Shown here: positions 1,818-29,907 of the stretch, piece by piece
Position numbering within the stretch: the stretch's first letter is position 1
Layout of the letters: each line of letters opens with the position of its first letter
Source of the DNA: Bacteroidales bacterium
GTDB taxonomy: Bacteria; Bacteroidota; Bacteroidia; Bacteroidales; WCHB1-69
Assembly (NCBI GenBank): GCA_012522535.1
Contig: JAAYKF010000093.1
Location: 1 to 32,798 of the forward strand
Length of the DNA: 32,798 nt
Reading direction: 5' to 3'
Program-made: the position numbers and the translations under genes
Notes under the pieces: model-generated
What the model was told of the DNA's origin: nothing
Databases searched by the model: none
What the model saw: the letters and a program-made list of their open reading frames with translations, nothing else

Positions 1818-3197
1818 TTAGTCCATATCAAATTTCAAAACTAATGGCTCTTGTTTCAGTATTTTTGGTAGAATAACAGTCGTTTTACCATTTTTTGTAC
1901 TCCATTTCATCCTTTTGTTATTTTGCAAAAGTGTCATTTTTGTGCCTTTTTTAGGTGGGTTTCCTTCCCAATGGATATTTTCTGGCAGTGTTTCTCCTTC
2001 GGGGAGTGCATAGATGGCATAAATGGTTTTATTATTTTTATTGGCAGTAAACCAAATATTGCCACTATTGTAGTTTTTTGTGATACGAGTATTGTAAATT
2101 CCTTCTCCGTTAACTTTGAGCCATTCTCCAACTTTTTCAAGACGTTCAACGGCAGGAGTCTCAATAATGCCTTGGGCTGTGGGTCCAACTCCCAAAAGCA
2201 AACATCCGCCTTTTGCGGTAATTTCTGCAAGCATATTTATTACTTGTTGTGCCGATTTGTATGGGGCATTGGGCACCCAACCCCAGTCGTTGCTCAATGT
2301 AATGCAGCTTTCCCAAGGATATGGCAATTGAGTTTCGGGAATTGAACGCTCTGGAGTTTGATAGTTTTCATATTTCCCTTGAATAGTTCTGTCCACAATC
2401 AGTATTCCCGGCTGATTTTTTCTAACCATCTTTGCAATATTATCCATATCAATATCTTGACTAGGTGCCGAAACCCATCCGCCATCCAACCAAAGTATAT
2501 CAATATCTCCATATTGGGAGGTGATTTCATTTAATTGATTATATGTAAATTCTTTGAATTTTTCCCAACGTTGGGGGTGTCGTTCAATTTTGTAATTTAC
2601 ACTTCGGTTTGGACTTGCAAAGCGGTCCCACCAATAGTATTGCGAGTGCCAGTCTGGTTTAGAAAAATAGGCACCAATCATAAAGTCTTTTTTTCGAAAT
2701 GCCTCAAAAACATATTTGGCTACATCTGCTTTAGGGTTGTTTTTGAATGGTCCGTTTGCAATGGAAAAATCTGTCTGTTTTGTGTCAAACATATTGAAGC
2801 CATCGTGATGTTTTGTGGTGAAAATTACGTATTTCATACCTGCTTTTTCCATCACCGATGCCCATTGGTCTGGATTAAAATCTGTTGGATTAAATTCATC
2901 TTTCAGACCCCAATACCATTTTTTGTACTCTTCGTAGGTCATTGTCGTGTCTCGCGAAATCCATTCCACATCTTCAGAACAGATTGACCAAGATTCTACA
3001 ATTCCAGGAACGGAATATAATCCCCAGTGAAAAAGAACACCAAATTTTAGGTCTTGCCATGTGTCCAGTTTCTGCTGAACTTCGGGTTCTTGTGGAGGTA
3101 TGTATCCGTCTGATTTATCGTGGACAAAAGCTTGCTGGGCAAAAATATTTGAGTTTACTATAAATACAATAAGTAGTAATATAAATCCCTTTTTCAT
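1818..3197 (-). CDS. GH29 alpha-L-fucosidase, exported
   Basis: A 459-residue glycoside hydrolase expected to release terminal alpha-L-fucose from glycans in the periplasm or at the cell surface. A signal peptide covers residues 1-20 (hydrophobic core FILLLIVFIV, cleavage near FAQ). The catalytic barrel starts with the family hallmark KFGVLFHWGLYS (51-62), followed by TTKHHDGF (127-134). The nucleophile is most likely Asp238 in WLDGGW. The acid/base is less certain: Glu296 in PYPWES fits the roughly 58-residue spacing seen in GH29 enzymes, with Glu283 and Glu288 as alternatives. Residues about 370-459 look like the C-terminal beta-sandwich. There is no T9SS sorting domain, so it is probably periplasmic. 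It is last in a - strand run, 22 bp after the serine hydrolase gene. Family assignment is firm; substrate linkage is not readable. Confidence 0.93.
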   Translation of the reverse strand: MKKGFILLLIVFIVNSNIFAQQAFVHDKSDGYIPPQEPEVQQKLDTWQDLKFGVLFHWGLYSVPGIVESWSICSEDVEWISRDTTMTYEEYKKWYWGLKDEFNPTDFNPDQWASVMEKAGMKYVIFTTKHHDGFNMFDTKQTDFSIANGPFKNNPKADVAKYVFEAFRKKDFMIGAYFSKPDWHSQYYWWDRFASPNRSVNYKIERHPQRWEKFKEFTYNQLNEITSQYGDIDILWLDGGWVSAPSQDIDMDNIAKMVRKNQPGILIVDRTIQGKYENYQTPERSIPETQLPYPWESCITLSNDWGWVPNAPYKSAQQVINMLAEITAKGGCLLLGVGPTAQGIIETPAVERLEKVGEWLKVNGEGIYNTRITKNYNSGNIWFTANKNNKTIYAIYALPEGETLPENIHWEGNPPKKGTKMTLLQNNKRMKWSTKNGKTTVILPKILKQEPLVLKFDMD

Positions 3198-12775: not shown

Positions 12776-15337
12776 TTATTGTTTTATAATTTTATGTATT
12801 GCTGTCCCAGAACTGTTAGTAATTCTTAGTAGATAAATTCCATTATTGAAATTGCTAATATCAATTTTCAAAGAAGCTTTATTTGCATCTACACTTTCAA
12901 GTTTTTGTCCTTTTATATCAAATATTTCTATGGTGCTAATTTCGCTAATATTGTCAATATATATAAAGTTGTTAGTGGGATTGGGATATACATTGTATTT
13001 ATTATTTTGATTTTCGTCAATTCCCACACCCCAGCAGGCAGTGTTTGAGGCTATCCATTGAGGTCCATTTTTCAGATTTGCAACAAAGGCGTTTGCTGTG
13101 GCATCAATTGCTGTGGTACCTTCGCCTTCGTTTAGAGGCCAATAGGCTGAAAGATTTTGTTCGTTACCAACTAATTTGGCATCATAGGTTGATGCAATTT
13201 GCTGTTCAGTTCTCACTGTTCTCCAAATTCTAACATCATCAACTGCACCCTTAAAATATGCTGCATCTGCGGGTGTTGTGGCCATATATCTACCCAAGTA
13301 TAGCCCCGTAGGAAGAGAGTTCCACAAAATACCCTGAACCATATTGGATGTTGTTTTTGACTCCACTAATTGACCGTTTAGGTAGAATTTTATCTCTTTC
13401 CCGTCGTAGGTTCCTGCCACGTGGCTCCATGTGTCTAAAGGAATATTTGCCCCAGGTAAATCTTCCCATTCTGCTACATCCATCGACAGTGGGTGAACCA
13501 AGAATCTTAATTTGCCATTGACATAACCAAAACCATATCCATTTTTATAATCATCGGTTAGGTTCATAAATGCAAGGGGGAAGCCCTGTTCTGCCTCTGG
13601 ATTTATCCATGCTTCGATGGTGAAGTTGGATTGTAATCTAAGGGTAGATCTATTTCCACAATCTACGTAATCGTCAATTCCATCAAATTTTATGGCATTG
13701 CAAGGACTAACGTATGGGGTTACATTAATATATGCAGTTTTGCTTAAAGTGCTGGTTTCGCCGTATAGGTTGCTAACCTCCAATTTTACGTCATATGTTC
13801 CAACGGTGCTGTATGTAACACTGGGGTTTTGAGAATCGTAAACAGAGGGTGTAACGCCCTCAATTGTCCATGTCCATGTGCTTGGCGAGCCAGTAGATTG
13901 GTCTGTAAACTGCACTGTGCTACCTTGAGGAACATCAGTTTGGCTGGCTGTGAAAAGTGCTTTTAGTGGTGGTGTGAATGTTATTTCCGATTTTGCAACA
14001 AAGATGTCATAGCCTCCCTGGCTACTAATTTCTGTTCCGTGGAAGTTGGCACTATTGCTAAATCTTCCGCAAACCAAGGCGGAGCCATCCGAAACAACGT
14101 GTATCCCCAATGCTGCATCTGAGCCTGTGCTATTGGCTGGTTTTGCCCATTGAAATTCACCATTGTTATTAAATTTAGCCACAAAAGCCCCCATAGTTCC
14201 TGGGTTGGCAAGCAAAATATTTCCTATGCTTAGGGTGTCGGAATAGAAGCCCGAAATATAAACATTTCCACTTCCGTCCAAACCAATACCAGTGGCACCG
14301 TCGGCCTTAGTTGTGGCTATGGTGCTTACCCAGTGGGCAGTTTCGCCATCTGACGAAAGTTTTGCCACAAAGGCATCGCTACTTCCTTTGCTTGTAATTA
14401 AATGTGACCCAATATTCAGGGTGTTGGAAAAAGTCCCTGTAAAATAAATATTTCCACCATTATCGCAAATAAGTGTGTTGCTGGTGCTTTCGGTGGAAGT
14501 TGTACTTGTGAATTGTTTTACCCACCCAAAGTTTCCATTACTATTATATTTTACCAAAAACATATCTTGCTGATTTTGACCACCAGAGTTTGCTATGGAT
14601 GAGCTGACACCTTCAAAGGAGCATGCACCGCTAATTCTGCCCAATAGCAAAGGGTGTCCATCGTGAGAAATTGTCAAAGAAATTGGAGTTTCATATCCAT
14701 TGGAGCCATACATCCTTTTTATCCACTGTAAGCTGCCCGAAGAGTTGAATTTGCCCAACCATGCATCGTCGTAGCCATTGGCTGTTATCTGTGTGTCATC
14801 AACTTTTATTGTTCCGCCAAAAGAGGCTGCAATATAAATATTTCCATCGCTGTCAATGTCGAAAGTGCGTGCATAGCCACCAAGTTTCTTCACCCAAATA
14901 ACTTGTCCAGTATTGTCATATTTCGCCAAAAAAGATTTAGCCCCATCGGCATTATTAATTTGTTCAGTTCCAAAAAAGGCTGTGCCACCATGCCATCCCA
15001 AAACGAAGATATTTCCTTCGTCATCAACTTTAATATCCAAACCTTTGTCGTCGGCGTTGCTACCCGCTTTTTTAGCCCACATAAAACCGCCATTGCTGTT
15101 GTAGCGTGCAATGAACATATCGCTGCCACCAGAAGAAATTAAACTATTACCCGAGCCAAAAGAAACCGTTCCGTTGAAATGACCCGTTACAAAGGCATTG
15201 CCCTGCGAATCGCGACTTATGGAAACAGCTTGGTCGTCGCCAGAAGCTCCAGCACTCTTCACCCATGACCAGTTGGGTTGAGAAATTGCAAAAAATGAGA
15301 TTGATAAAATGCTAAACAATAAAAATGTTTTTTTCAT
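12776..15337 (-). CDS. T9SS cargo protein: SBBP seven-repeat propeller, PKD, LamG-like, sorting domain
   Basis: An 853-residue secreted surface protein. I start it at the ATG at 15337, which directly opens a signal peptide (MKKTFLLFSILSISFFAISQ); an in-frame ATG 12 codons earlier adds only charged residues. Residues about 22-450 hold seven repeats of roughly 62 residues of the SBBP (beta-propeller) type, with recurring G-x-x-x-DD, D-x-x-GN-x-Y and F-x-AK-Y-N-S-N-G elements. Residues 458-540 are a PKD domain (VQFTDQSTGSPSTWTW, then YDVKLEVSN). Residues 546-770 are a concanavalin/LamG-type jelly roll (IKFDGIDDYVDCGN, FTIEAWINP). Residues 782-853 are a type A T9SS sorting domain (VYPNPTNNFIYI, then NNGIYLLRI). 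Likely roles are adhesion or glycan binding at the cell surface. No catalytic residues are recognisable. It is first in its run, with a -7 box 33 nt upstream. Confidence 0.9.
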   Translation of the reverse strand: MKKTFLLFSILSISFFAISQPNWSWVKSAGASGDDQAVSISRDSQGNAFVTGHFNGTVSFGSGNSLISSGGSDMFIARYNSNGGFMWAKKAGSNADDKGLDIKVDDEGNIFVLGWHGGTAFFGTEQINNADGAKSFLAKYDNTGQVIWVKKLGGYARTFDIDSDGNIYIAASFGGTIKVDDTQITANGYDDAWLGKFNSSGSLQWIKRMYGSNGYETPISLTISHDGHPLLLGRISGACSFEGVSSSIANSGGQNQQDMFLVKYNSNGNFGWVKQFTSTTSTESTSNTLICDNGGNIYFTGTFSNTLNIGSHLITSKGSSDAFVAKLSSDGETAHWVSTIATTKADGATGIGLDGSGNVYISGFYSDTLSIGNILLANPGTMGAFVAKFNNNGEFQWAKPANSTGSDAALGIHVVSDGSALVCGRFSNSANFHGTEISSQGGYDIFVAKSEITFTPPLKALFTASQTDVPQGSTVQFTDQSTGSPSTWTWTIEGVTPSVYDSQNPSVTYSTVGTYDVKLEVSNLYGETSTLSKTAYINVTPYVSPCNAIKFDGIDDYVDCGNRSTLRLQSNFTIEAWINPEAEQGFPLAFMNLTDDYKNGYGFGYVNGKLRFLVHPLSMDVAEWEDLPGANIPLDTWSHVAGTYDGKEIKFYLNGQLVESKTTSNMVQGILWNSLPTGLYLGRYMATTPADAAYFKGAVDDVRIWRTVRTEQQIASTYDAKLVGNEQNLSAYWPLNEGEGTTAIDATANAFVANLKNGPQWIASNTACWGVGIDENQNNKYNVYPNPTNNFIYIDNISEISTIEIFDIKGQKLESVDANKASLKIDISNFNNGIYLLRITNSSGTAIHKIIKQ
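13988..15274 (-). repeat. Seven protein-coding SBBP repeats, about 62 codons each
   Basis: This stretch encodes residues 22-450 of the T9SS cargo protein. Repeat boundaries recur near residues 22, 85, 146, 204, 271, 334 and 397, each beginning with a W-x-K/S-type strand (for example WSWVKSAG, MWAKKAGS, IWVKKLGG, QWAKPANS). Seven copies suggest one closed seven-bladed propeller. The repeats are diverged at DNA level. Confidence 0.75.
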
Positions 15338-15370
15338 GACAATATAAATTTGTTTTTTATTTTCAGTCTC

Positions 15371-15378
15371 CAAAGTTA
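15371..15378 (-). promoter_or_regulatory. Putative Bacteroidota -7 element for the SBBP cargo gene
   Basis: Read on the - strand, TAACTTTG matches TAnnTTTG. It ends 33 nt before the start codon at 15337. Upstream TTTG tetramers lie at 16 and 23 nt spacing, on either side of the usual 19-21. It shares the intergenic region with the opposite-strand promoter at 15517-15547. Confidence 0.5.
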
Positions 15379-15583: not shown

Positions 15584-18500
15584 ATGAAAAAGTTTTATCC
15601 ATTTTTATTTCTGTTATTATTTCCTTTTGCCACTCTTTTTTCTCAGCAAATCCTTGTTTCGGCTTGGTCGTTTGATGAGTTATTGGAGGCTGACGAAACG
15701 GCAAATGTTATAAATGCCGATATCGGAAATACCAGTTCAGTAATCTATCTTGATGGAACCAATGGTTCGGATGAGTTTTTGTCCACGGCTACAAGTCCGG
15801 AGTTGACTGTTTTTGCTGGCTCTGTTTTAAACGACCCCAGAGAAACACCCGCTGCTGGTAAAGCCCTTACCATTGCCAATAACAGTGCCAACGGCAAATC
15901 TCTAATCATCAAATTCTCGATGACAGATTTGAAGAATGCCGAAATTAGCTTCGCCACAAGAGGTACAAGCACAGGTTTTAGCTCCCATAATTGGGCTTGG
16001 AGTACCGACGGAACAAACTTTACCGATTTTGGAGAAAACAGCGCTGTGGTAACAACAAGCTTTGTGGTGAAAACTCTCCCTCTGGGCAATCTTGTTGATA
16101 ATGAGGATGTTGTCTTTTTAAAGCTCACTTTTGATGGTGCAACCACCGCCAGCGGAAATAATAGAATTGACAATTTGGTCATAAAAGCTGAAGAGGATGT
16201 AACCGAATTTATTGATGTGGAGATGGTTTATGGAGTACTACCGCCAAGCTCTGTTTGCGGACAAGAAAATGTACATTTTGTGGTATTAGCAAAAAATAAT
16301 AGTAATATAAACTTGAGTGATGTTCCCTTTTATGCAAAAATAAATACGCCTTCTGGCGATGAAATTAACCTATCGCAAACCCTTGCAAATTTTGTTGCTG
16401 GAACGCAGATGAATATAACCTTCACACCAAGTTTTAATGCCATTGAAAGTGGGGTCTATAGCGTGATAGCCTATTCGGCATTGGAAAATGATGAGCTGAA
16501 AACTAATGATACAATAACATATTCTTTTGAGGTGGCAGAAATTCTTGAAGTGCCATTTATAGCAGATTTTAATGATGCAGAAAATGATGGTTTTGTACTA
16601 CTTGAAGGTTTTACTTTTGTAGGCTCTGGCGAGGATAGAATGCTACAAAGTGATTTTACATCTCAAAATGAGAGTATATTAGAAACCCAAAAAAGGGTAG
16701 GACCTTTAAGTTTTCACAATCATTTGGTTTTTGATTTTAGAATAATAAACAGTGAGCAAAATGGATATGAACTCACCCAAGATGATGTGATAAAAGTTTA
16801 TATAAATAATGATTGTGGTGATTATACAATTCTGGCAGAAATAAATTCTGATAATCATGAAGCAATAGCCGATTTCAGAAGAAAAGCTATCCCATTAAAT
16901 GCTTTCGAAAATGCCAATGTTCAGGTGAAAATTGTTGCAGAAAAGTCTGATGAAACAAACTATACTATTCAAATTGATAATTTAGAAATACGCGATGGCG
17001 ACCTTTGGGATTTTGGTGTAGTGGAGAAAATTTTACCCATAAACACACCTTGTGGATTGGAAAATGATACCCTTAGAGCTATTTTCAAAAACTTTGGAGA
17101 TGGGTATGTTAAAGATATTCCAGTAGCTGTGCAGGTTGCACGACCATATTTTCCGCCAATTGTTACCATTGAAGACACCATCAGAACAGTTTTAGCACCC
17201 AACGAAGAGATTATTTTTACCTTTTCAGAAACAATTAATACAGCTACACCCGGAAAATATACCTTAATGTACAGAACTGTACATCCTTTCGACACCGTTG
17301 CAAGCTTAGGACATAATATAAATAATAATCTTATTGATAGTATCAGAATTGAGAATGCCCTGCCATTGCCATATTTTCAAAATTTTGAAAACGAAGATTA
17401 TGCACTGCAATGGAACACAGATATGATATTCGATAGTGCAAATGAGTACTTAACCAAAACTTTTGTAGCAACCGATAATAACGGATACCTAAATTCTGCA
17501 AAAAGATTTGGACCTATAACAGCAAACCATAATCTGTTTTTTGATTATACTTTTGTAAATTCTGCTGGAAATGCTCTAACAATGTCGGCGAATGATGTTG
17601 TTTTGGTGAAAATTTCTGATGATTGCGGCATAACAACTACAACTGCTTATACAATTAACTCATCTAATCATACACAATCGGCTGATTTTCAGAATATTCA
17701 AATACCGCTAACAGCATTTGCAGGAGAGCTAATTACCATCGATTTTGAGATGAATATAGAGACAGAAAATGCTGTTTTAAAAATTGATAATATTATAATC
17801 GATGGAGCTCCAACCATTAGCATTGATGGTCCAGAAAATGTAAATTTATGCCAAAACGACACCTATACAGCCCATGTAAGTGGCTCAAGTTCATATGAGT
17901 ATAATTGGTATTTGAATGATATATTAAGTGATGACATATCCACATCTCAAGATTTGATCATAACTGAAGAGGGTACCTATATTGTGGAAGCAACCAATGC
18001 ATCTGGAATGTCTTCCTACGATACTCTTATTGTAAATATTGTGCCACTGCCAGATGTCCAATTTGACCTGCCCCAAGAGCATAGCTCTGTATGTCCCAAC
18101 GCGGATTTTATATTATTGACAGGTAATACCCCAGCAGGTGGAACTTTTTCTGGCGATGGTGTTTCTGTAAATCGTTTCTACCCAGCTACTGCCGGAAGTG
18201 GAACACACACCATAACCTACACAGCCACTGTTGATGGCTGTTCGGCATCGGCAACGGCTACAATCACAGTCCACCAGGTGGTAGATGTGCAGCTGTCCGA
18301 TTTACCTGAACTATGCTTTAATGATGAAGCTATTACACTAAATCAGGGAGTACCCACAGGAGGCATCTATTCAGGGATAGGGGTGGAAAACAATATTTTT
18401 GACCCCCAAATAGCAGGTGTCAATACCCATCTGATAACATACTCATTCACCGATGAAAATGCCTGCGTTTACACTGCCCAAAATTCAATTTTGGTGAAAC

Positions 18501-19225
18501 CACTGCCCAACGCTTTTGCAGGAAATGACACCCAAGTTTGTGAAGGCAAACAGACCACCCTTGTGGCTTCGGGAGGTACTTCATACCTATGGAGCACAGG
18601 CGAAACAAACAATGCCATTGTGGTTAGCCCAGAGGAGACTACAACATATTTTGTAACCGTTACAGGTGTCAATGGCTGTACAAGCAGTGATGATGTAAAA
18701 GTTGTGGTAAATCCGTACCCCGTGGCTACTCTAAGCCTACCCTTCGATACAGTTTGTATGCAAACAACAGCCTTTGAACTTTCGGGTGGCGAAGGTACTC
18801 CTGCCGGAGGAATTGGAACATATTCTGGACCGGGAGTTAGCGGAAATTGGTTCAATCCAGCCATCGGAATGGGAACTTATCCCATCAAATATACATACTC
18901 ACTTTCGGGTTGCGACTCTTCTGCTACACAAGAAATTACAGTGATAAATTGTGTGGGAATTGATGAATTTGAACTTGAAAATTTCATAACTGTTCAGCCA
19001 AACCCAGTGGAAGATATGCTGTTTGTGAAAATTCAAAACACAAACGGACTCTACGAAATAGCCCTAACAGATGTGCTGGGCAAGGTGCTTTACACTCACC
19101 AAATTAATGAGAATAGCCCAGAAGCATCTATAAACATACCATTGGAAAATCTGCAAAAAGGACTATATTTGATTCATATTTCGCACAATGAGCAAAAACT
19201 TATTAAGAAAATTATGAAGTTGTAA
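15584..19225 (+). CDS. Giant T9SS cargo protein with duplicated CARDB-like/anchor-J-like modules and Ig-like repeats
   Basis: A 1213-residue surface or secreted protein. The signal peptide is residues 1-20 (FLFLLLFPFATLFS). Residues 23-205 form a jelly-roll-like domain (WSFDELL, then the end RIDNLVIKA). Next comes an internal duplication: a CARDB-like domain (about 208-320, then 475-590, each opening with a V/L-P...CG pattern) alternating with a choice-of-anchor-J-like domain (322-470, then 595-740, each opening PF..DFN/PYFQNFE, with RVGPLS or RFGPIT, and closing on an IDN-x-x-I strand). Residues about 743-1125 hold Ig/PKD-like domains, including three copies of a P-x-GG-x-(x)-Y/F-SG-x-GV element (near 850, 924 and 1073) and one GNDTQVCEG unit. 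Residues 1134-1213 are a type A T9SS sorting domain (VQPNPVEDMLFVKI, QKGLYLIHI). No catalytic residues are seen; an adhesin-like role is most likely. The next cargo gene starts 2 bp after its stop. Confidence 0.88.
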   Translation: MKKFYPFLFLLLFPFATLFSQQILVSAWSFDELLEADETANVINADIGNTSSVIYLDGTNGSDEFLSTATSPELTVFAGSVLNDPRETPAAGKALTIANNSANGKSLIIKFSMTDLKNAEISFATRGTSTGFSSHNWAWSTDGTNFTDFGENSAVVTTSFVVKTLPLGNLVDNEDVVFLKLTFDGATTASGNNRIDNLVIKAEEDVTEFIDVEMVYGVLPPSSVCGQENVHFVVLAKNNSNINLSDVPFYAKINTPSGDEINLSQTLANFVAGTQMNITFTPSFNAIESGVYSVIAYSALENDELKTNDTITYSFEVAEILEVPFIADFNDAENDGFVLLEGFTFVGSGEDRMLQSDFTSQNESILETQKRVGPLSFHNHLVFDFRIINSEQNGYELTQDDVIKVYINNDCGDYTILAEINSDNHEAIADFRRKAIPLNAFENANVQVKIVAEKSDETNYTIQIDNLEIRDGDLWDFGVVEKILPINTPCGLENDTLRAIFKNFGDGYVKDIPVAVQVARPYFPPIVTIEDTIRTVLAPNEEIIFTFSETINTATPGKYTLMYRTVHPFDTVASLGHNINNNLIDSIRIENALPLPYFQNFENEDYALQWNTDMIFDSANEYLTKTFVATDNNGYLNSAKRFGPITANHNLFFDYTFVNSAGNALTMSANDVVLVKISDDCGITTTTAYTINSSNHTQSADFQNIQIPLTAFAGELITIDFEMNIETENAVLKIDNIIIDGAPTISIDGPENVNLCQNDTYTAHVSGSSSYEYNWYLNDILSDDISTSQDLIITEEGTYIVEATNASGMSSYDTLIVNIVPLPDVQFDLPQEHSSVCPNADFILLTGNTPAGGTFSGDGVSVNRFYPATAGSGTHTITYTATVDGCSASATATITVHQVVDVQLSDLPELCFNDEAITLNQGVPTGGIYSGIGVENNIFDPQIAGVNTHLITYSFTDENACVYTAQNSILVKPLPNAFAGNDTQVCEGKQTTLVASGGTSYLWSTGETNNAIVVSPEETTTYFVTVTGVNGCTSSDDVKVVVNPYPVATLSLPFDTVCMQTTAFELSGGEGTPAGGIGTYSGPGVSGNWFNPAIGMGTYPIKYTYSLSGCDSSATQEITVINCVGIDEFELENFITVQPNPVEDMLFVKIQNTNGLYEIALTDVLGKVLYTHQINENSPEASINIPLENLQKGLYLIHISHNEQKLIKKIMKL

Positions 19226-19227
19226 AT

Positions 19228-22200
19228 ATGAAAAACATCCAAAAATTTACGCTACTCCTAATTCTGAGCCTGATTTCTGGAAATCTTTTTTCGCAATCTT
19301 GTCCAGAATTATGGGTAGATTTGGGAAGCCAAAAACATATTGTCTGTGGCGATAGCGTGAAGCTTTTTGCCAAAACCAATTTCCAGCACGCAGATTCTAT
19401 CTCTTGGCAATGGACAGATAATGATTTTCAAACAACAACAATTTCTCAATCAACAATAGTTTTTCCGCCCATTTCTAAAATATATAAAGTGCAAGCCACA
19501 ACGCCCTCGGGTTGCGTAATGACAGATTCTGTCTTGGTAAATGTGCACGGAGCACAAGTCAATGTGGAAGAGCAAAAAACTATTGCCTGCGGAATGCAAG
19601 TTTATGTTTTTGCCAATGTAAAATGGCAAAATGTTTTTTCGCCTACAGCCGAAAAAATATCTGGCGTAGCCATGCCCAGCAGTGATACAGTATTTGTTTG
19701 TGGCGATAATGGCAAAGTTTTCAAATCAACCGACCAAGGAGCATCATGGACTGATGTCTCGCTTAGCGTAAATTTCGACCTAAAATCATGCCATTTTTTC
19801 TCCTCAAATATTGGTTTGGTTTGTGGCGATAATGGAGTTATTTATCGCACCACCGATGGCGGAAATACTTGGCAAAATGCCCCAACAGGAAATGCACAAG
19901 CCATAAATTCAATGTTTTTTCTCAACAACCAAACTGGCTTTGCAGCTGGCGGAACTGGGTCAACAAACACATATTTGTACAAAACTGGAAATGGTGGTGC
20001 CAACTGGAGTACCATCGGATTACCCAATAATTATGTCATAAATTCACTCTTTTTTCATAACGCAAATCAAGGTTTTGCCGCTTGCAAAAATGGGATAATC
20101 ATGAAATCTACAAATGGTGGTTTGCAGTGGACAACTTCCAGTATGACAATGCAAAACGACCTGAATAGCATCCTTTTCGTAGATGAAAATATAGGCTTTG
20201 TTTGCGGTAATAATGGCTTGATTTTAAAGACAGATAATCAAGGTGAAACTTGGACAAAACTTAATTCCAACACGCATAACAATCTCAGAAAAATTGAGCT
20301 AACCGACAATAATGACTTAATAATTGTGGGTGATAATGGCACAATTCTGTTTTCTCCAAACTATGGAGATGATTGGCATAAAATCCCCATTGGTAGTGAA
20401 GGTAATGTATTGAATATCAAGATGATAAACCATGAGTTGGGTTTCTTGGTAGGGGAGAATGGAAAAATAATGAAGCATAAAAATGTTTTCAACACTTTTC
20501 AGTGGTTACCCACAGACAATTTAACTGATGTGGAATATTATAATACAATAATAAACACCTCACAATCAGCAATCTATGAGTTTTTTGCTCAAACAGCTCA
20601 CTATTGTGTTGCATCTGATACGATTTTTATAGAGGCGCTACCCTCTGAGGTTTATGCCAATATTGATAAAGAATCGGTCTGCGGCGATGAAGTAGTCCTC
20701 TACGGCGATTTCCAGTGGAAAATTGTCGAAAATGATATTGGATTATTAATCGAAGATGCCATAGTGGAGGGCAATTTGGTTAAAGCTGTTTATGGCGATA
20801 CATTGCTGATTATTTCGGAAAATGGCTCTATTCTAAAAAAAGTGAAAATTGGTACTGGCGGAGGTAGCTCCTTCAAAACCATTGCCACCAATAATAAAGG
20901 AAGTATTTTAGCGGCAGGCTATACTGGGGTGATGGCTCAAAGCAAAGATTTTGGCTTCAACTGGTCATATGTGATAACGGGTAATACTCACACCATCAAC
21001 AAGATAGCCTTTAGGGATGATGGTTTTGCCCTCGCCGTTGGCGATAATGGACATATTCTGAAATCTACTGATGGAGGAACAAGTTGGATAATAATTAACA
21101 CTGGCTATAATTCTGATTTACAGAGTGTTGTGTTTTTAAATAATGATGATATTTTAGTTGTGGGAAGTGGTGGAACTGTACTGCGTTCAACTAATAATGG
21201 CAGTAGTTTTGGCTCTATGGGAAACATAACTTCAAGTAATTTATTTGATGTTGCAGTTTTGCCCGATGCCACAATTTTTGCCTGCGGCGATAATGGAACT
21301 ATCCTAAAGTCAACCAATTCAGGTCTATCGTGGACAAGTGAGACCATAGATGTATCTCAAAACTATAAATCTATTTTTGCCCTCACATCAGAAATTATAT
21401 ACCTAAGTGGCGATAATGGCGTAATCCAAAAATCCATAGATGGAGGTGAAAATTGGTACATAATGAAGTCCAACTCCACAAAAAATCTAAAGAATATAAG
21501 CTTCACAAATCAGTCTGCTGGCATTGCCCTCGGCTCCAATGGCGAAATTCTTCGCTACGATTATCCCAATTCCAATAATAGATGGATTGATGTAAATACA
21601 TTTCAAGTTTATAATCAAGATGTGATTTCGGTTTTTCCCAACGAAACTTCCAATTATATTTTTCAAATGGAGACAAGTTCTGGATGTTTTAGCTCCGATA
21701 CAACAACAGTAATTGTCAACCCACTAATTGTTTATGCAGGAGGCGATGTGGTTCAAACTTGTGGACTACCTTTCGAAATTCAAACTCAAACCAATCTCAT
21801 TGACGACCAGCACATAACCTATCAGTGGACACCCTCAACTTATCTTTCCAACGACACAATTCCCAATCCTATTTGCACCCCACTAAGCAATGTGCAATAT
21901 GTACTACATGCTTGGCACCCAGATGGTTGTGAAGCATATGATACCATAAATGTCTTTGTTGGGTCAACCTCCGTAACAGCTTATCAAGATACCACAATAT
22001 ATTGTGGTGAAATGGCCAATTTAAGCGTTGAGCTTGAAAATCCAATTTCGGGAACTACCTACTCTTGGACACCCTCCGAAAGTTTAAACAACTCCCATAT
22101 TGCCAACCCAATAGCAACGCCCTCGCAAACTACCTCATATGTGGTTGTTGCCACCGACCCCAATGGCTGCACTGGTACTGACTCGGTGCTGGTGAAAGTA

Positions 22201-23256
22201 ACAGCTTTGGAGGTCTCCATTAATACCCAAGAGATTTTAAGTTGTGGCGAAAAAATACAACTTTTCCCGCAAGTCAACAATCCCAATCCCGGTCTCTTAA
22301 ACTGGCAGTGGACACCCGAAGTAGGATTAAATATTTCCACAATTCAAAACCCTTTTGTTAGCTATGGCGGAGATATTTCATACACAGTAACAGCCTCAAA
22401 CAGCAGTGGCGAATGCACGGCAAGTGCGAGCATAGATATCATTTCTGCCCCTGCACTTTTCAACCCCGAAATATGCCTTGCATCATATGATATCGATCGA
22501 GATAGAAATCTTGTGCAGTGGATAGTGCCACACACAAATGTTTTGGATTCAGTGAAAATTTTTCGAAAAAACGACTACAATCAGTGGGTATTGCAAAGCA
22601 ATAGAAATCACCATGCTGGAAATTTCTGGTTCGATCCAACGGCAATACCCCATAAAGGAGCTTCTGAATATGTAATTTCATTTGTGGATAGTTGCGGCTT
22701 CGAAAGCTCCCAAAGTGATGAACACAAAACTATTTTTGCAAGTATGGATATAAGTGAAAATGGTTTATGGAATATAAACTGGACTCATTATCAGGGTTTT
22801 ATGTCCCTTTGGTATGATGTTTATAGAGCCTATGGAAACCTAAGTTTTGAACATATTGCACGTGTGTCAAATACAGCTACAAGCTTTGTTGATACCACCC
22901 AAAGAGAGGGTCTTAGAAAATATTTCATAGCTGCCGAAAATCCCGACTCTTGCTTCACAAATGTTAACACCCATAGAAAATTTTCATTCTCAAATATTGT
23001 ATCCAACACCCCGCAAACCCTTGTAAGCGACATTAAAGTTTTCCCCAATCCAGCAGTGGATAGGCTTGTTGTTTCAGGTGCATTGTTGGTGGGTTCAGAT
23101 ATTGAAATTTTCGACTCAAAAGGAGATAAAGTTATGGAGCTAACAACCATGGAACCCCTAATTGTTATCCCACTTAGCAAACTCCGAAAGGGAGTTTATC
23201 ACCTTAGAATTGAAACAAGCGTGAACGTTATTTACGATAAATTTGTCAAATTATGA
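19228..23256 (+). CDS. Giant T9SS cargo protein with two seven-bladed YCF48/BNR-type propellers nested in Ig-like domains
   Basis: A 1342-residue secreted protein with a signal peptide (MKNIQKFTLLLILSLISGNLFSQ). Residues 26-108 are a complete Ig-like domain. Two blocks of seven YCF48/BNR-type repeats follow (137-424 and 500-784), about 41 residues each, with the recurring core CGDNG-x-I/V-x-K-S-T-D-x-G-x-x-W. Each block seems to interrupt an Ig-like domain: the first strands (CGMQVYVFANVKW at 121-133; CGDEVVLYGDFQW at 485-497) precede the propeller and the remaining strands (425-471; 785-832) follow it. Three intact Ig-like domains (834-1073, each with CG and W-x-P/T landmarks), a fibronectin-like region (about 1080-1260) and a T9SS sorting domain (1268-1342: VFPNPAVDRLVV, RKGVYHLRI) complete it. 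No hydrolase residues are evident; BNR-type Asp boxes alone do not make it a sialidase. The start is 2 bp after the previous stop; the end overlaps tadA by 4 bp. Confidence 0.88.
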   Translation: MKNIQKFTLLLILSLISGNLFSQSCPELWVDLGSQKHIVCGDSVKLFAKTNFQHADSISWQWTDNDFQTTTISQSTIVFPPISKIYKVQATTPSGCVMTDSVLVNVHGAQVNVEEQKTIACGMQVYVFANVKWQNVFSPTAEKISGVAMPSSDTVFVCGDNGKVFKSTDQGASWTDVSLSVNFDLKSCHFFSSNIGLVCGDNGVIYRTTDGGNTWQNAPTGNAQAINSMFFLNNQTGFAAGGTGSTNTYLYKTGNGGANWSTIGLPNNYVINSLFFHNANQGFAACKNGIIMKSTNGGLQWTTSSMTMQNDLNSILFVDENIGFVCGNNGLILKTDNQGETWTKLNSNTHNNLRKIELTDNNDLIIVGDNGTILFSPNYGDDWHKIPIGSEGNVLNIKMINHELGFLVGENGKIMKHKNVFNTFQWLPTDNLTDVEYYNTIINTSQSAIYEFFAQTAHYCVASDTIFIEALPSEVYANIDKESVCGDEVVLYGDFQWKIVENDIGLLIEDAIVEGNLVKAVYGDTLLIISENGSILKKVKIGTGGGSSFKTIATNNKGSILAAGYTGVMAQSKDFGFNWSYVITGNTHTINKIAFRDDGFALAVGDNGHILKSTDGGTSWIIINTGYNSDLQSVVFLNNDDILVVGSGGTVLRSTNNGSSFGSMGNITSSNLFDVAVLPDATIFACGDNGTILKSTNSGLSWTSETIDVSQNYKSIFALTSEIIYLSGDNGVIQKSIDGGENWYIMKSNSTKNLKNISFTNQSAGIALGSNGEILRYDYPNSNNRWIDVNTFQVYNQDVISVFPNETSNYIFQMETSSGCFSSDTTTVIVNPLIVYAGGDVVQTCGLPFEIQTQTNLIDDQHITYQWTPSTYLSNDTIPNPICTPLSNVQYVLHAWHPDGCEAYDTINVFVGSTSVTAYQDTTIYCGEMANLSVELENPISGTTYSWTPSESLNNSHIANPIATPSQTTSYVVVATDPNGCTGTDSVLVKVTALEVSINTQEILSCGEKIQLFPQVNNPNPGLLNWQWTPEVGLNISTIQNPFVSYGGDISYTVTASNSSGECTASASIDIISAPALFNPEICLASYDIDRDRNLVQWIVPHTNVLDSVKIFRKNDYNQWVLQSNRNHHAGNFWFDPTAIPHKGASEYVISFVDSCGFESSQSDEHKTIFASMDISENGLWNINWTHYQGFMSLWYDVYRAYGNLSFEHIARVSNTATSFVDTTQREGLRKYFIAAENPDSCFTNVNTHRKFSFSNIVSNTPQTLVSDIKVFPNPAVDRLVVSGALLVGSDIEIFDSKGDKVMELTTMEPLIVIPLSKLRKGVYHLRIETSVNVIYDKFVKL
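19636..20499 (+). repeat. Coding repeat block 1: seven YCF48/BNR-type repeats
   Basis: This block encodes residues 137-424. Repeat cores lie near residues 158, 199, 240, 286, 326, 367 and 408, a period of about 41-42 residues, with the best copies reading CGDNGKVFKSTDQGASW and CGDNGVIYRTTDGGNTW. Seven copies fit one closed propeller. The DNA copies are diverged, so this is an old duplication. Confidence 0.8.
20725..21579 (+). repeat. Coding repeat block 2: seven YCF48/BNR-type repeats
   Basis: This block encodes residues 500-784. Cores lie near residues 521, 563, 605, 646, 687, 728 and 769, again with a period of about 41. The strongest are VGDNGHILKSTDGGTSW and CGDNGTILKSTNSGLSW; the first two copies are degenerate. 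The block is separated from block 1 by the second part of one Ig-like domain and the first part of the next. Confidence 0.8.
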
Positions 23257-23746: not shown

Positions 23747-23793
23747 CACAAAATTCGTTTCAATTAGAGCCTTATAAATAACTAATGTATAGA

Positions 23794-24894
23794 ATGAAAA
23801 AATTCTTTTCCATAATCAGCTTTTTACTTTTGCAGTTTTGTGGCTTTTCGCAAGCAACAAAATATAGCAACGAGTTTATGAATCTTGGTGTCGGTGCCAG
23901 GGCTTTGGGTATGTCCAATACGCAAGTGTCGCTCACCAACGACGGTACAGCAGGATATTGGAACCCTGCTGGACTACTAAATATGAGCCGCGACAGAGAA
24001 CTAAATCTGATGCATGCCGAATATTTTGCTGGGATTGCAAAATACGATTATGGCTCCTTTGCCATTAAAATTGACGAAAATTCAGCAGCAGCACTTTCGG
24101 TTATTCGTTTTGGAGTTGATGATATTCCCAATACAACAGAATTAATTGATAATCAGGGAAATATAGATTATAATAGAATCACAAGCTTTTCAGCTGCCGA
24201 CTATGGAATACTATTTTCATATGCTCGTAAACTGCCGTCAATAGAGGGTTTAAGACTTGGTGCCAATGTGAAAGTGATTCGTAGAGTTATTGGTGATTTT
24301 GCTGGTGCTTGGGGCTTCGGAATAGATGCTGGTGCGCAATATTCATACAAAAATTGGAATTTTGGAATTATGGGAAGAGATATAACTTCAACATTCAATG
24401 CGTGGAGCTACGATTTATCTGATAGAATGATTGAAGTTTTTCAACAAACTGGAAACGATATCCCAACAAATTCATTGGAAATTACACTTCCAAAATTTAT
24501 TGTAGGTGCAAGCCATAAATTCAATTTGCCAAAAGATTTATCGGCAACAGTGGCACTCGATTTAGATATCACCACCGACAGAAAAAGGAATGTGTTAATT
24601 AGCGGAAATCCTTTTAGCATAGACCCACATTTTGGAGTGGAATTGGGATATAACAATTTGATATTTGTTAGAGGTGGATTTGGAAATCTTCAGCAAGAAA
24701 GCGATTTTTTGAGAGATAATTTCTGGTCGTATCAGTTTAATGTTGGTGTGGGTGTAATAATTAAAAAAATATTGGCAATTGATTATGCACTAAGCGATAT
24801 AGGCGATAAATCCATTGCTGTTTATTCAAATATATTTTCATTAAAACTGTTTTTAAATAGAAGTGAAAGCAAAAAAGAAGCAAGCTCATTTTGA
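23794..24894 (+). CDS. PorV/PorQ-like outer-membrane barrel protein
   Basis: A 366-residue protein related to the PorV/PorQ group, FadL-like barrels that act in the T9SS attachment step. In that system PorV carries cargo to the sortase PorU, and PorQ works with PorZ. The start at 23794 gives a signal peptide (MKKFFSIISFLLLQFCGFSQ); an upstream in-frame ATG at 23785 adds only three residues. The family signature follows directly: NLGVGARALGMSNT, then SLTNDGTAGYWNPAGL (about residues 30-60). The remainder is beta-rich with FadL-like strands and ends in a short charged tail. It lies 9 bp before a C25 PorU-like gene, the same kind of pairing as porV with porU, so a PorV-type role is favoured over PorQ. 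Which paralogue it represents cannot be decided from one window. Confidence 0.85.
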   Translation: MKKFFSIISFLLLQFCGFSQATKYSNEFMNLGVGARALGMSNTQVSLTNDGTAGYWNPAGLLNMSRDRELNLMHAEYFAGIAKYDYGSFAIKIDENSAAALSVIRFGVDDIPNTTELIDNQGNIDYNRITSFSAADYGILFSYARKLPSIEGLRLGANVKVIRRVIGDFAGAWGFGIDAGAQYSYKNWNFGIMGRDITSTFNAWSYDLSDRMIEVFQQTGNDIPTNSLEITLPKFIVGASHKFNLPKDLSATVALDLDITTDRKRNVLISGNPFSIDPHFGVELGYNNLIFVRGGFGNLQQESDFLRDNFWSYQFNVGVGVIIKKILAIDYALSDIGDKSIAVYSNIFSLKLFLNRSESKKEASSF

Positions 24895-24903
24895 TTGTAA
24901 TTT

Positions 24904-27900
24904 ATGAATAAAATTAGAATATTTTTCCTTGTAATATTTGTCTCAGTTTTTACCAATATTTTTTCGCAACAAATTGGTAATGAATGGGTCTCTTATAATC
25001 AAAAATATCTCAGATTTCATGTTACAGAAGATGGGGTTTACAAAATTCCTTATGATGTTTTAAAATCAGCTTTTAACAATATTAACATAGATATTCAAAA
25101 TCTTAATCCAGCTGGATTTCAAGTTTTTGGTAGAGGGAAAGAGATTCCTATTTATATAAAAACTCAAAACAATTCCTTTTTGGAAAGTGGAGATCATATT
25201 GAAGTTTATTGCCAAAGAAATGATGGCTGGTACGATGAACAGCTTTACCCAAATCCCCACGACCACACCAACCCATATTATAGTCTCTTCAACGATACAG
25301 CCTCCTATTATATCACTTGGAACCCCTTGCTAAATGGGCAAAGAATGACAGTGGAAGAGGGCGAAAATTTTGATAGCTATAATCAAATTCCATATTTTTA
25401 TTTTGAAAATATACACTATCTTTATTCCAACTATACCCTTGGCGAACTATCCAACGACCTGCTTCCCAAAATTGAGTATGTAAATGGCGAAGGCTGGATT
25501 GGACCTGCATACACCAACGGACAAACCAGAACTTACAACCTCGCCACAACAAATGCATATAGCTCAGGAACTTTTGCTGAAGTGGAAATAGGGGTGGGCT
25601 CGACTTCAAACCCTGCACACCATATGAAAATTCAGTTTGCAGGCGAAACAATCGATACTGTTTTTTTTGGACAAAAATATTTCAGATTTCAAAGACAAGT
25701 ACCAGCTTCAGCCTTGGGAGCTACAAATACCAGTTTTGTATTTTCTTCAGTTGATGACATGCAAAGCCCATCAGACCGACAGGCAGTGGCGTTCATAAAA
25801 TTGAAATATCCGCATAATCTGCAATTGGAAAATACGGAGACTTATAAACTGTTTTTGCCCAATTTTGGTTCTTTACCCAAATCTGTTCTGAAATTTACTT
25901 CTAATTCCATAGCCACTAATTCTGGCGATGTAGCCATAGTTTACGACATCACCAATGGCATTAGAGTTAAACCTCAAAAAAGTGGAAATCAGTTTTCAGC
26001 ATTAATGAGAAATTATGGTGAAGAAAAAGAGATTTTTATCACCTCTGAACAGAAAATAAAAAATGTAAATGCACTATTTCCAGTTAACGAAACGGGGCAA
26101 TTTGTTGATTATACAAGCAGTGAATACAAAGCTTCAAATTATATAATAGTCTCACACCCATTGCTTTGGGACGAAGCTTTGCAATATAAAGAGTATAGAA
26201 AAAATTCGGGTTACCCCAATTTATACAATCCAATTTTGGTAAATATCGAAGAGTTGTACGATCAATTCTCATATGGAATTAGGAAAAATCCCATGGCTAT
26301 CAGAAACTTTATGAAGTTTGCCATCACCTTTTTCGACCAAGTTCCAGAGCATCTTTTTATCATCGGAAAATCATACCGCTCTGCCGAAAATTCCACCTCT
26401 TTGCCCATGTATAGAAAAAATGCTACGCACTATCAAAATACTTTGGTTCCAACCATATGCGTGCCACCCTCCGATATGGCTTTCACCTCCGGATTAATCG
26501 ACCCAAATACCTATCATCCGGCTGTGCCAACAGGCCGACTGAGTGCCAAAACGCCCAATCATGTTTCACTCTACCTCAATAAAGTACAGCAACACGAAGA
26601 TGCCCTTAGAACACCCAAACCATGGATGAAAAATGTTTTGCACTTTGCAGGTGGAACGGGAAATCTGCACAACTCAATTGTAAGTCATTTAAGTCAATTT
26701 GAGAATATTATCGAAGCTCCCTCCTTTGGTGCCCATGTGCAAACATTCAAAAAATCCACCACCGAACCCATACAAATTAATCAATCTGATTCTCTTAAAA
26801 ATCTGATTAACAATGGAGTAAGCCTGATGACATTTTTCGGACACGCATCTGGAATTGGATATGATATTAGCATTGATAATCCTGAAGAGTATAACAATTA
26901 TGGAAAATATCCTTTGATTTTTGGTTTGAGCTGTTTTGCTGGCGACCTCTTCACCACCGGACTTCACTATGACAGAGGCAGCAGTAGCGAAGAATTTGTT
27001 TTAATCGACAACAAAGGAACTATTGCCTATTTAGCAAATGTGGGCAGTGCCATAGATATCTACCTTGCACATTTTGCAGAAAGTTTCTACAAGAATTTTG
27101 GGAATAATTATTACAATAAACCCTTGGGAAAAATTATTCAGCAAACCATAAAAGATAATGAGGTAAAACCTTGGATGAAAGAGACCAATTTGGATATGAC
27201 CTATCACGGCGACCCTGCAATTATCATTAACTCATTCGAGAAGCCCGATTATGTTATTACAGCCAATGACATAAAATTTGAACCACAAAATATAAGCACC
27301 GAAATTGAAAATTTCGAGGTGAAAATAGCCCTGAATAACCAAGCAAAGGCAGTTGAAGACTCTATGATTGTGAAAATCAGCAGAACATATCCCAATGCCG
27401 AAGTGTTCGACACACTAATTAGAGTAAAAGCCCCATACTTTTCTGATACCCTGAAGCTTAGCCTGCCTGTTGATAGGATTTTAGGACTGGGAAATAATAG
27501 CTTGAAAGTCTCCGTGGACGACTTCAATGAAATTGATGAAATTAATGAGGATAATAATGTTGTAAGTGTAAATTTCCTAATTTCATCATCGGATATTATA
27601 CCAGTTTTTCCTTATAAATATGCCATTGTACCCCAATCTCAAATTTCTTTGATGGCATATTCTGGACCCTTTTTCGAAACTTCCCAATCTTATGTTTTTG
27701 AAATTGATACCACCGATTCTTTCGATAGTCCATTTAAAACTTCTGAAATAAAAAGCTCCCTCGGCGGAATTGTCTCTTGGGATTTACCCTTCCATTTCAC
27801 AGATTCAACGGTCTATTTTTGGCGTGTAGCCAAGGAGTCCAGCCATAACTGGCGAGAGAGTTCTTTCCAGTATATCCCAGATAAAAGAGGTTGCGAACAG

Positions 27901-29907
27901 GCACATTTTTATCAATATAAAGACAATAGTTTTAGATACTTAAACTATAATAAACCACAAAGAATTTTCGAATTTACCCAAGACATAAAATCGCTTTCGG
28001 CGCAAACGGGCTACTTCGGATATGGTATGCCGTGGACAGAAATTTGGCTCAAAGTAAATGGCTCTGTTTTGGACATTTGGTCGTGCCTGAGCAATGGCGG
28101 AAATGGAATGAAAATAGCTGTAATAAATCCTATCTCTGGCGATTTTTGGCTAAATCCAGACTCCATTGGAAATGTGGGGCAAGCCATTTGTAAAGACTAT
28201 ACCACCTACGTAGCCGACTTTTTTACACATACCGAGGCACACAGAGAGAATTTAACCAACTACCTAAATTCCATTCCCAACGATTATTATATTTTGGCAA
28301 TGAGCCACCGAAATCACTTTGCCACTGAATACTCAGAAGAGCTGTATCAAGCCTTTGAGTCCTTCGGAAGCACAAAAATTAGAACATTGCAATCTACAAA
28401 TCCATATATAATTTTTGGGCAAAAAGGAGTAGCCATGGGCGACCCTGTCATAAAAGAAGTAGTAGCTGCCAATGCATCGCAAATCATAGGCTTAGACACC
28501 GAATATGCCACCACCTGGGATGAAGGTGATATGACCTCCGAAACTTTTGGTCCGGCACTAAAATGGGGTAGTCTGCATTGGAGATATAAAAGTATGGAAG
28601 AGCCAAGCACCGATGAGGTCTTTGTGCGCCTTGTAGCCGTCGATACCAACGGCGTAGAGCATACAATCATAAATAGATTAGACACTGATTCATTGGATGT
28701 TTATGACCTAAATGAGAGAGTTCCTGCTGAAGTTTTTCCGTACATCAAACTGAAATTTCACTCATCTGACATAGTCAATAATACACCATCGCAGCTTGAG
28801 CGTTGGCACTTGGTTTATGACCCTGCACCCGAAACAGCCATAGACCCAAGTGTGAATTTTAGCTTCTCCAAACCATCTCTAAATCAGGGAGATACCCTGC
28901 GATTATCAATTTCTACCCGAAATATCGGAGGTGTGGATATGGATAGCCTTTTGGTGGTTTATAGAATTATAAAAGATAATATACCTGTAAAAACAATTTA
29001 TAAGCGACTAAGAAATCATCCTGCTGACGATGTTCTGACCGACACCGTTGAGTTTTCTACCATGAACCTATCGGGAGCAAATATTTTGCAAGTGGAATTT
29101 AACCCAGATAACGACCAAGTGGAGATGTACCATTTTAACAATATTGCTGAGTTTTATTTCAATGTAAATATAGATCAGATAAACCCCATAATGGATGTAA
29201 CATTCGATGGGCAGCACATTATGAACGGAGATATAGTTTCGGCAAAACCGCAAATACAGGTTACATTAAAAGATGAAAATCCATATTTATTACTCAACGA
29301 GGAGAGCGATACTGCCAATTTTAGAATACAAATAAAACACCCCAATAATTTTGAATATGTAAGGATTCCTTTCCACGATGGTGCTAAAGAAATTATGAAA
29401 TTTATACCTGCAACATCAGCCAATAAATCTCATATAATTTATGATGCCGATTTTGCAGAAGATGGGATTTATTCAATGATGGTTGAAGGAATGGATAAAT
29501 CGGGAAATATTTCGGGAAATAAAAAATATGAAATAAAATTTGAGGTCATAAATAAATCAACAATCACTCAGGTGATGAATTGGCCCAATCCTTTTTCCAC
29601 TTCCACTCGATTTGTATTTACGCTCACAGGCTCGCAAATTCCCACATATTTCAAAATTCAAATAATGACAATTTCTGGAAAATTGGTAAGAGAGATTGAT
29701 TTAACAGAACTTGGAAATATAAAAATAGGTAGAAATATAACTGAATATGCCTGGGATGGTCGCGACCAATTTGGTGATTTATTGGCAAACGGTGTATATT
29801 TGTACAGAATTGTAACAAATATTGGTGGCGAAGATATTGAAAAGCGACATACTTCGGCATCTAAATATTTCACTAAAGAGTTTGGAAAAATGGTTTTAAT
29901 TAGATAA
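24904..29907 (+). CDS. C25 (gingipain-family) cysteine peptidase, PorU-like, with ILEI-like and FlgD-Ig-like domains
   Basis: A 1667-residue exported protein, much longer than classical PorU sortases (about 1100-1200 residues). The signal peptide is residues 1-21. Residues about 25-400 are a beta-rich N-terminal region starting WVSYNQKYLRFHVTEDGVYK, a common opening of C25 proteins. The C25 domain spans about 412-780, with catalytic His647 (FFGHASG) and Cys677 (GLSCFAGD), the SSSEEFVL/KGTIAYLANVG block (693-714) and a YHGDPAI end (768-773). Then come a CARDB-like domain (785-893), a fibronectin-like domain (900-990), an ILEI/FAM3-like domain (about 1040-1180), another CARDB-like stretch (1316-1420) and a FlgD-Ig-like C-terminus (1555-1640: WPNPF, then AWDGRDQFGD and NGVYLYRI). 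I recall homologues labelled putative sortase PorU2. Its position 9 bp after a PorV-like gene supports a role in T9SS cargo processing or anchoring. Confidence 0.87.
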   Translation: MNKIRIFFLVIFVSVFTNIFSQQIGNEWVSYNQKYLRFHVTEDGVYKIPYDVLKSAFNNINIDIQNLNPAGFQVFGRGKEIPIYIKTQNNSFLESGDHIEVYCQRNDGWYDEQLYPNPHDHTNPYYSLFNDTASYYITWNPLLNGQRMTVEEGENFDSYNQIPYFYFENIHYLYSNYTLGELSNDLLPKIEYVNGEGWIGPAYTNGQTRTYNLATTNAYSSGTFAEVEIGVGSTSNPAHHMKIQFAGETIDTVFFGQKYFRFQRQVPASALGATNTSFVFSSVDDMQSPSDRQAVAFIKLKYPHNLQLENTETYKLFLPNFGSLPKSVLKFTSNSIATNSGDVAIVYDITNGIRVKPQKSGNQFSALMRNYGEEKEIFITSEQKIKNVNALFPVNETGQFVDYTSSEYKASNYIIVSHPLLWDEALQYKEYRKNSGYPNLYNPILVNIEELYDQFSYGIRKNPMAIRNFMKFAITFFDQVPEHLFIIGKSYRSAENSTSLPMYRKNATHYQNTLVPTICVPPSDMAFTSGLIDPNTYHPAVPTGRLSAKTPNHVSLYLNKVQQHEDALRTPKPWMKNVLHFAGGTGNLHNSIVSHLSQFENIIEAPSFGAHVQTFKKSTTEPIQINQSDSLKNLINNGVSLMTFFGHASGIGYDISIDNPEEYNNYGKYPLIFGLSCFAGDLFTTGLHYDRGSSSEEFVLIDNKGTIAYLANVGSAIDIYLAHFAESFYKNFGNNYYNKPLGKIIQQTIKDNEVKPWMKETNLDMTYHGDPAIIINSFEKPDYVITANDIKFEPQNISTEIENFEVKIALNNQAKAVEDSMIVKISRTYPNAEVFDTLIRVKAPYFSDTLKLSLPVDRILGLGNNSLKVSVDDFNEIDEINEDNNVVSVNFLISSSDIIPVFPYKYAIVPQSQISLMAYSGPFFETSQSYVFEIDTTDSFDSPFKTSEIKSSLGGIVSWDLPFHFTDSTVYFWRVAKESSHNWRESSFQYIPDKRGCEQAHFYQYKDNSFRYLNYNKPQRIFEFTQDIKSLSAQTGYFGYGMPWTEIWLKVNGSVLDIWSCLSNGGNGMKIAVINPISGDFWLNPDSIGNVGQAICKDYTTYVADFFTHTEAHRENLTNYLNSIPNDYYILAMSHRNHFATEYSEELYQAFESFGSTKIRTLQSTNPYIIFGQKGVAMGDPVIKEVVAANASQIIGLDTEYATTWDEGDMTSETFGPALKWGSLHWRYKSMEEPSTDEVFVRLVAVDTNGVEHTIINRLDTDSLDVYDLNERVPAEVFPYIKLKFHSSDIVNNTPSQLERWHLVYDPAPETAIDPSVNFSFSKPSLNQGDTLRLSISTRNIGGVDMDSLLVVYRIIKDNIPVKTIYKRLRNHPADDVLTDTVEFSTMNLSGANILQVEFNPDNDQVEMYHFNNIAEFYFNVNIDQINPIMDVTFDGQHIMNGDIVSAKPQIQVTLKDENPYLLLNEESDTANFRIQIKHPNNFEYVRIPFHDGAKEIMKFIPATSANKSHIIYDADFAEDGIYSMMVEGMDKSGNISGNKKYEIKFEVINKSTITQVMNWPNPFSTSTRFVFTLTGSQIPTYFKIQIMTISGKLVREIDLTELGNIKIGRNITEYAWDGRDQFGDLLANGVYLYRIVTNIGGEDIEKRHTSASKYFTKEFGKMVLIR

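Follow-up and report, generated by a model that had tools for sequence, protein, structure and literature searches.

An ILEI/FAM3-type domain inside PorU2, a PorU-like C25 protein of Bacteroidota

Why does a long C25-family protein of a Bacteroidales bacterium carry, in its middle, a domain known from animal FAM3 cytokines, and what might that domain do there? The question is raised by a stretch of 32,798 nucleotides (GCA_012522535.1, contig JAAYKF010000093.1; hereafter, the window). A sequence-only reading of the window had placed an ILEI/FAM3-like domain at 28021-28443, within a bacterial C25 sortase-like protein, and had speculated that it binds a glycan or lipid anchor. The motifs quoted in support of that claim are all present in the +1 frame of the open reading frame at 24904-29907. 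The PorU2 and ILEI families are both named in public databases; in the open-access literature, we found no paper that joins them, none that names PorU2 or ties ILEI to the type IX system (T9SS), and no description of PorU2 activity.

The 1,667-residue product of this frame matches the NCBIfam model for PorU2 (NF052324) over residues 7-885, with 718 bits against a cut-off of 450, and its Peptidase_C25 match covers residues 413-773 (E = 1.2e-50), which places the domain inside a C25 sortase-like protein as had been proposed. Against the PorU model NF033707, it scores 196 bits, below the equivalog cut-off of 420. On these family matches, the host of the ILEI domain is PorU2 rather than canonical PorU. 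The alignment columns of His647 and Cys677 (Table 1) are invariant across 33 C25 sequences, canonical PorU among them, and by this alignment the catalytic residues of PorU2 are intact. Residues 1414-1638 align with the end of the PorU model. Given the retained His and Cys and this C-terminal match, PorU2 follows the layout of PorU, with ILEI carried in an additional central segment. Canonical PorU has the N-terminal region, the C25 domain with its His and Cys and the C-terminal stalk in common with PorU2 but is shorter (1,277 compared with 1,667 residues) and lacks ILEI, as does the canonical PorU of the same genome. The type A C-terminal domain (CTD) model TIGR04183 gives 18.3 bits on PorU2 (cut-off of 23), and the PorU2 frame of one relative (G126) exceeds the PF18962 cut-off.

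Directly upstream lies the gene for PorV2, a member of the PorV/PorQ family of outer-membrane proteins (508 bits against a cut-off of 325), an arrangement that 55 of 80 related loci share, truncated loci included. Just upstream of this pair, three genes (12776-15373 on the minus strand; 15584-19225 and 19228-23256 on the plus strand) encode large proteins that bear T9SS sorting domains of type A. The genome of the window also encodes canonical PorU, located elsewhere (NF033707, 1,296 bits), PorZ, SprA and 79 Por_Secre_tail matches. In one family (f7), many genomes have a strong PorV2 and no PorU2 above the cut-off, and PorV2 must therefore pair with another partner there. PorU2 itself is thought to be a sortase that fastens secreted proteins to the Bacteroidota surface. 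It could instead be a free surface protease, in which ILEI would aid substrate finding. The sub-threshold PorU score would suit such an enzyme, as would a single-contig genome (G269, locus L074) in which PorU2, PorV2 and GldM are present and SprA, PorU, PorZ and type A CTD cargo are undetectable. However, the N-terminal region, C25 domain and C-terminal stalk follow the order of PorU, and a PorV-family gene usually precedes PorU2, which makes a free protease improbable.

Several lines of evidence converge on the identity of the central domain. Pfam ILEI (PF15711) matches PorU2 with 43.7 bits (gathering cut-off of 27; E = 3.9e-11), and the excised domain alone gives E = 8e-13. This is the single ILEI match in the whole genome, and searches of 14 control genomes with the same model returned no match. 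Because a single-sequence phmmer search of the PDB was non-significant (best E = 0.23, to FAM3A) and too weak alone, the identification was settled by a profile built from 46 homologous regions. This profile retrieved FAM3B (5.9e-18), the POMGnT1 stem (6e-18), FAM3C (1e-17), FAM3A (8e-17) and TMEM2 (5e-11) from the PDB, with no match below 0.4 beyond these. Similarly, an AlphaFold2 model of residues 985-1295 (pLDDT 86, pTM 0.81) gave 21 PDB matches at E ≤ 1e-3 in Foldseek, all to the POMGnT1 stem, FAM3A/B/C or TMEM2, with target-normalised TM scores of up to 0.82. A profile search and a structural comparison with FAM3B and FAM3C had been suggested as checks of the ILEI assignment, and both bear it out. 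The POMGnT1 stem (5ggj) and FAM3A/B/C (7ecq, 2yop, 5lc2) have the fold (target TM 0.68-0.82; profile E of 6e-18 to 8e-17) and the G-S-x-x-I and G-x-K-G landmarks in common with the PorU2 domain, which, unlike them, sits in a bacterial C25 protein and carries a class-specific pair of cysteines. On profile and predicted structure together, it is essentially certain that PorU2 contains a real ILEI/FAM3 domain.

The structural domain is larger than the extent first given for it, at about 27979-28521. A natural deletion helps to define it: one relative (L072) is without exactly the segment found at residues 1124-1302 of its sister L075, and the flanks of the deletion align at 49 and 55% identity. 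Because L072 is missing just that segment and both flanks can be aligned, ILEI is, on sequence comparison, a discrete module of roughly 180 residues, which matches the FAM3 fold in size. In the AlphaFold2 and Foldseek analyses, the module interrupts a beta-rich segment of the host between two of its strands. Within PorU2, it is inserted after the catalytic half and before the C-terminal stalk common to PorU. The top Foldseek match of the segment that follows is the CARDB structure 3idu (E = 7e-7). As the module is cleanly lost in L072 and absent from the short forms of PorU2, the core reaction of PorU2 does not require it.

Table 1. Features of the PorV2-PorU2 locus in the window, with examples of second ILEI domains in related loci.
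Feature	Position	Strand	Basis
PorV2 (PorV/PorQ-family outer-membrane protein), directly upstream of PorU2	23785..24894	+	NCBIfam NF052325
PorU2, C25-family sortase-like protein, 1,667 aa	24904..29907	+	NF052324 and Pfam Peptidase_C25
Catalytic His647 (FFGHASG)	26842..26844	+	Invariant alignment column
Catalytic Cys677 (GLSCFAG)	26932..26934	+	Invariant alignment column
ILEI/FAM3 module, about residues 1026-1206	27979..28521	+	AlphaFold2, Foldseek coverage, natural deletion in L072
Cys1061, partner of Cys1096	28084..28086	+	Co-variation
Pfam ILEI match, residues 1068-1175	28105..28428	+	PF15711
Cys1096	28189..28191	+	Co-variation
Asn1137, at the position of POMGnT1 Asp179, which binds sugar	28312..28314	+	Profile alignment
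Thr1165, at the position of POMGnT1 Arg207, which binds sugar	28396..28398	+	Profile alignment
Beta-rich segment after ILEI, including CARDB-like Ig domain	28471..29178	+	AlphaFold2, pLDDT 92
C-terminal region similar to the end of the PorU model	29143..29817	+	NF033707 positions 866-1077, 70.5 bits
Second ILEI domains in related loci	L113 residues 393-477; L114 residues 612-695; L103 residues 1220-1333 and 1846-1957		Iterated profile

To assess how regularly PorU2 carries the module, we examined 80 genomes that had been gathered through C25 sequence alone, regardless of ILEI. All 65 complete PorU2 proteins with a length of 1,500 residues or more had the domain, at about residues 1020-1240. 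The expectation that all long PorU-like proteins carry ILEI thus holds for these PorU2 proteins, but not for canonical PorU. In a sample of 395 genomes from across the phylum, nearly all Pfam ILEI matches among those listed fall inside long C25 frames, and nearly all long PorU2 have the domain. Some long PorU2 were Pfam-negative, but the notion that these lack ILEI was rejected, as an iterated profile detects it in them. The same profile found no domain in the shorter forms L072, L115, L116 and L117, in a canonical PorU (L124) or in L109. The scan of the collection used a class-level C25 alignment, the phylum-wide one being too divergent. ILEI-bearing proteins lie on either side of the midpoint of the C25 tree, the root of which serves for drawing only, suggesting that ILEI was probably ancestral to long PorU2 and was later lost in families f12 and f13. 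Some PorU2-like proteins have a second ILEI, either before the C25 domain or repeated after the first one (Table 1). In one locus (L213, genome G115), in-frame stops break the PorU2 gene, leaving ILEI and C25 in separate open frames.

What such a module might do is suggested by the better-studied PorU. In Porphyromonas gingivalis, A-LPS is bound by PorZ, which passes it on to PorU; PorZ is a protein in its own right, built from two beta-propellers and a CTD (PMC8545088). As a domain of sugar-binding type lies inside a PorU relative, we suggest that ILEI may do in cis for PorU2 what PorZ does for PorU. PorZ would then be its analogue as a carbohydrate-binding part that serves a sortase, although one that differs in fold and is a separate protein. 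On this interpretation, which we favour while rating it slightly below an even chance, PorU2 would be a second T9SS sortase and ILEI a domain that presents a ligand to it in cis. ILEI would keep a surface glycan or another anchor acceptor, or else the glycosylated cargo, close to the active site of the C25 domain; PorU2 would attach the cargo and ILEI would bind the anchor. The homology and fold, the fixed position in PorU2, the intact catalytic His and Cys and the sugar-binding triad found in other classes argue for ligand presentation, whereas the presence of PorU and PorZ besides PorU2 in the window's genome, the clean loss of the module in L072 and the missing sugar residues in the window's class count against it.

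The residues of the domain allow a closer look. POMGnT1 binds sugar through Arg129, Asp179 and Arg207 (PMC9802357), which by the profile alignment correspond to R43, D93 and R121 of chain 5ggj, the numbering being inferred from a uniform shift of 86. GlcNAc is bound by human and worm ILEI domains that have this Arg-Asp-Arg triad (PMC9802357). The window's domain has Asn in place of Asp179 and Thr in place of Arg207, and the alignment at the Arg129 position is unreliable within its class, the Bacteroidia. Equivalents of Asp179 and Arg207 occur together in 0 of 22 ILEI domains of this class and in 29 of 52 from other classes of the phylum, the latter sample including loci picked as best Pfam hits, which biases 29 of 52 upward and leaves the class zero unaffected. 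The full triad is present in 13 of the other-class domains. The known POMGnT1-type sugar site is shown by alignment not to be conserved in the class, its sugar residues being absent, and the earlier proposal of glycan binding by this ILEI finds no support in them. Because the site is not conserved, any ligand of an ILEI of this class would have to be bound differently and may be a new one. If the window's domain binds a glycan or lipid, it would not do so through the known sugar residues. A further protein, encoded at L110:2994-4751 (585 aa), has an N-terminal ILEI with both triad Arg residues, and the region after it looks by eye like a phosphatidylserine decarboxylase.

The class has, in addition, a feature of its own. 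Of 94 of its domains, 68 have equivalents of both Cys1061 and Cys1096, 22 have neither and 4 have only one, and this co-variation suggests a probable class-specific disulfide. Because the class is without the sugar residues, a docking role is almost as likely as ligand presentation. ILEI would then serve for docking to another protein or as a spacer and would bind no small ligand; it would position PorU2 relative to the translocon, the outer membrane or a partner of the PorV type, while an unused sugar site decayed. Such a role, plausible if still doubtful, would account for the lack of the triad from the entire class sample, for the cysteine pair, which may stiffen the fold instead, and for the tolerated clean loss in L072. 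It sits less well with the triad Asp and Arg retained in many distant relatives and with the behaviour of PorV2, which ILEI does not track: the domain is kept in PorV2-less genomes (G049 and G146) and lost in G387 despite PorV2 next door. Docking onto PorV2 specifically is disfavoured, as the two losses are not coupled.

The fold also occurs in viruses. Matches in BFVD place it in phage gp35-type hinge connectors, in tail and receptor-binding proteins and in giant viruses. A phage carbohydrate-binding module (CBM) with an ILEI-type fold has been described, and the CBM_1 of phage Tal retains Arg and Asp (PMC9437275). These GG/ILEI proteins (the T4-type gp35 hinge connector and CBM_1 of streptococcal phage Tal) are folded as the PorU2 domain is but, unlike it, occur in a phage tail context and without a protease. 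Their occurrence in tail fibre and receptor-binding proteins, together with the CBM, would fit an outward-facing lectin for environmental or host glycans that takes no part in cargo attachment. Such a lectin would, however, be expected to move more freely between proteins, whereas across the phylum ILEI stays at one place within a sortase-like protein, and we consider this explanation unlikely.

Genomes without PorU and PorZ bear on ligand presentation as well. Among 41 genomes examined, canonical PorU was missing in four (G007, G091, G126 and G269), and PorZ was missing in all four; the chance of this joint absence is 0.003, a naive estimate given that the four belong to one family and are non-independent. 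Three of them (G007, G091 and G126; loci L083, L079, L211 and L212), each estimated to be 100% complete, retain SprA and have 10, 48 and 90 matches to type A CTDs; they also encode one or two PorU2 proteins that carry ILEI, and no other PorU-type enzyme was found in them. These genomes are compatible with a role of ILEI in anchor attachment. The broader idea that ILEI replaces PorZ everywhere was rejected, as PorZ is present in the window's genome and in most genomes with PorU2. It is conceivable, although we think it rather unlikely, that PorU2 is a second T9SS sortase, independent of PorU and PorZ, with its own cis-acting anchor-glycan domain of the FAM3/POMGnT1-stem type and a different anchor sugar in Bacteroidia than in other classes.

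Most of what is known about the anchoring of type IX cargo comes from oral pathogens that have PorU and PorZ. Our results reveal the fold of the animal FAM3 'cytokines' as a standard bacterial surface module, and the retention of PorU2 where PorU and PorZ are absent, with up to 90 CTD hits, raises the question of what anchors cargo there. A second sortase that is conserved and has, as an integral part, a domain whose fold binds sugars in other proteins would open cargo anchoring in the remainder of the phylum to direct tests.
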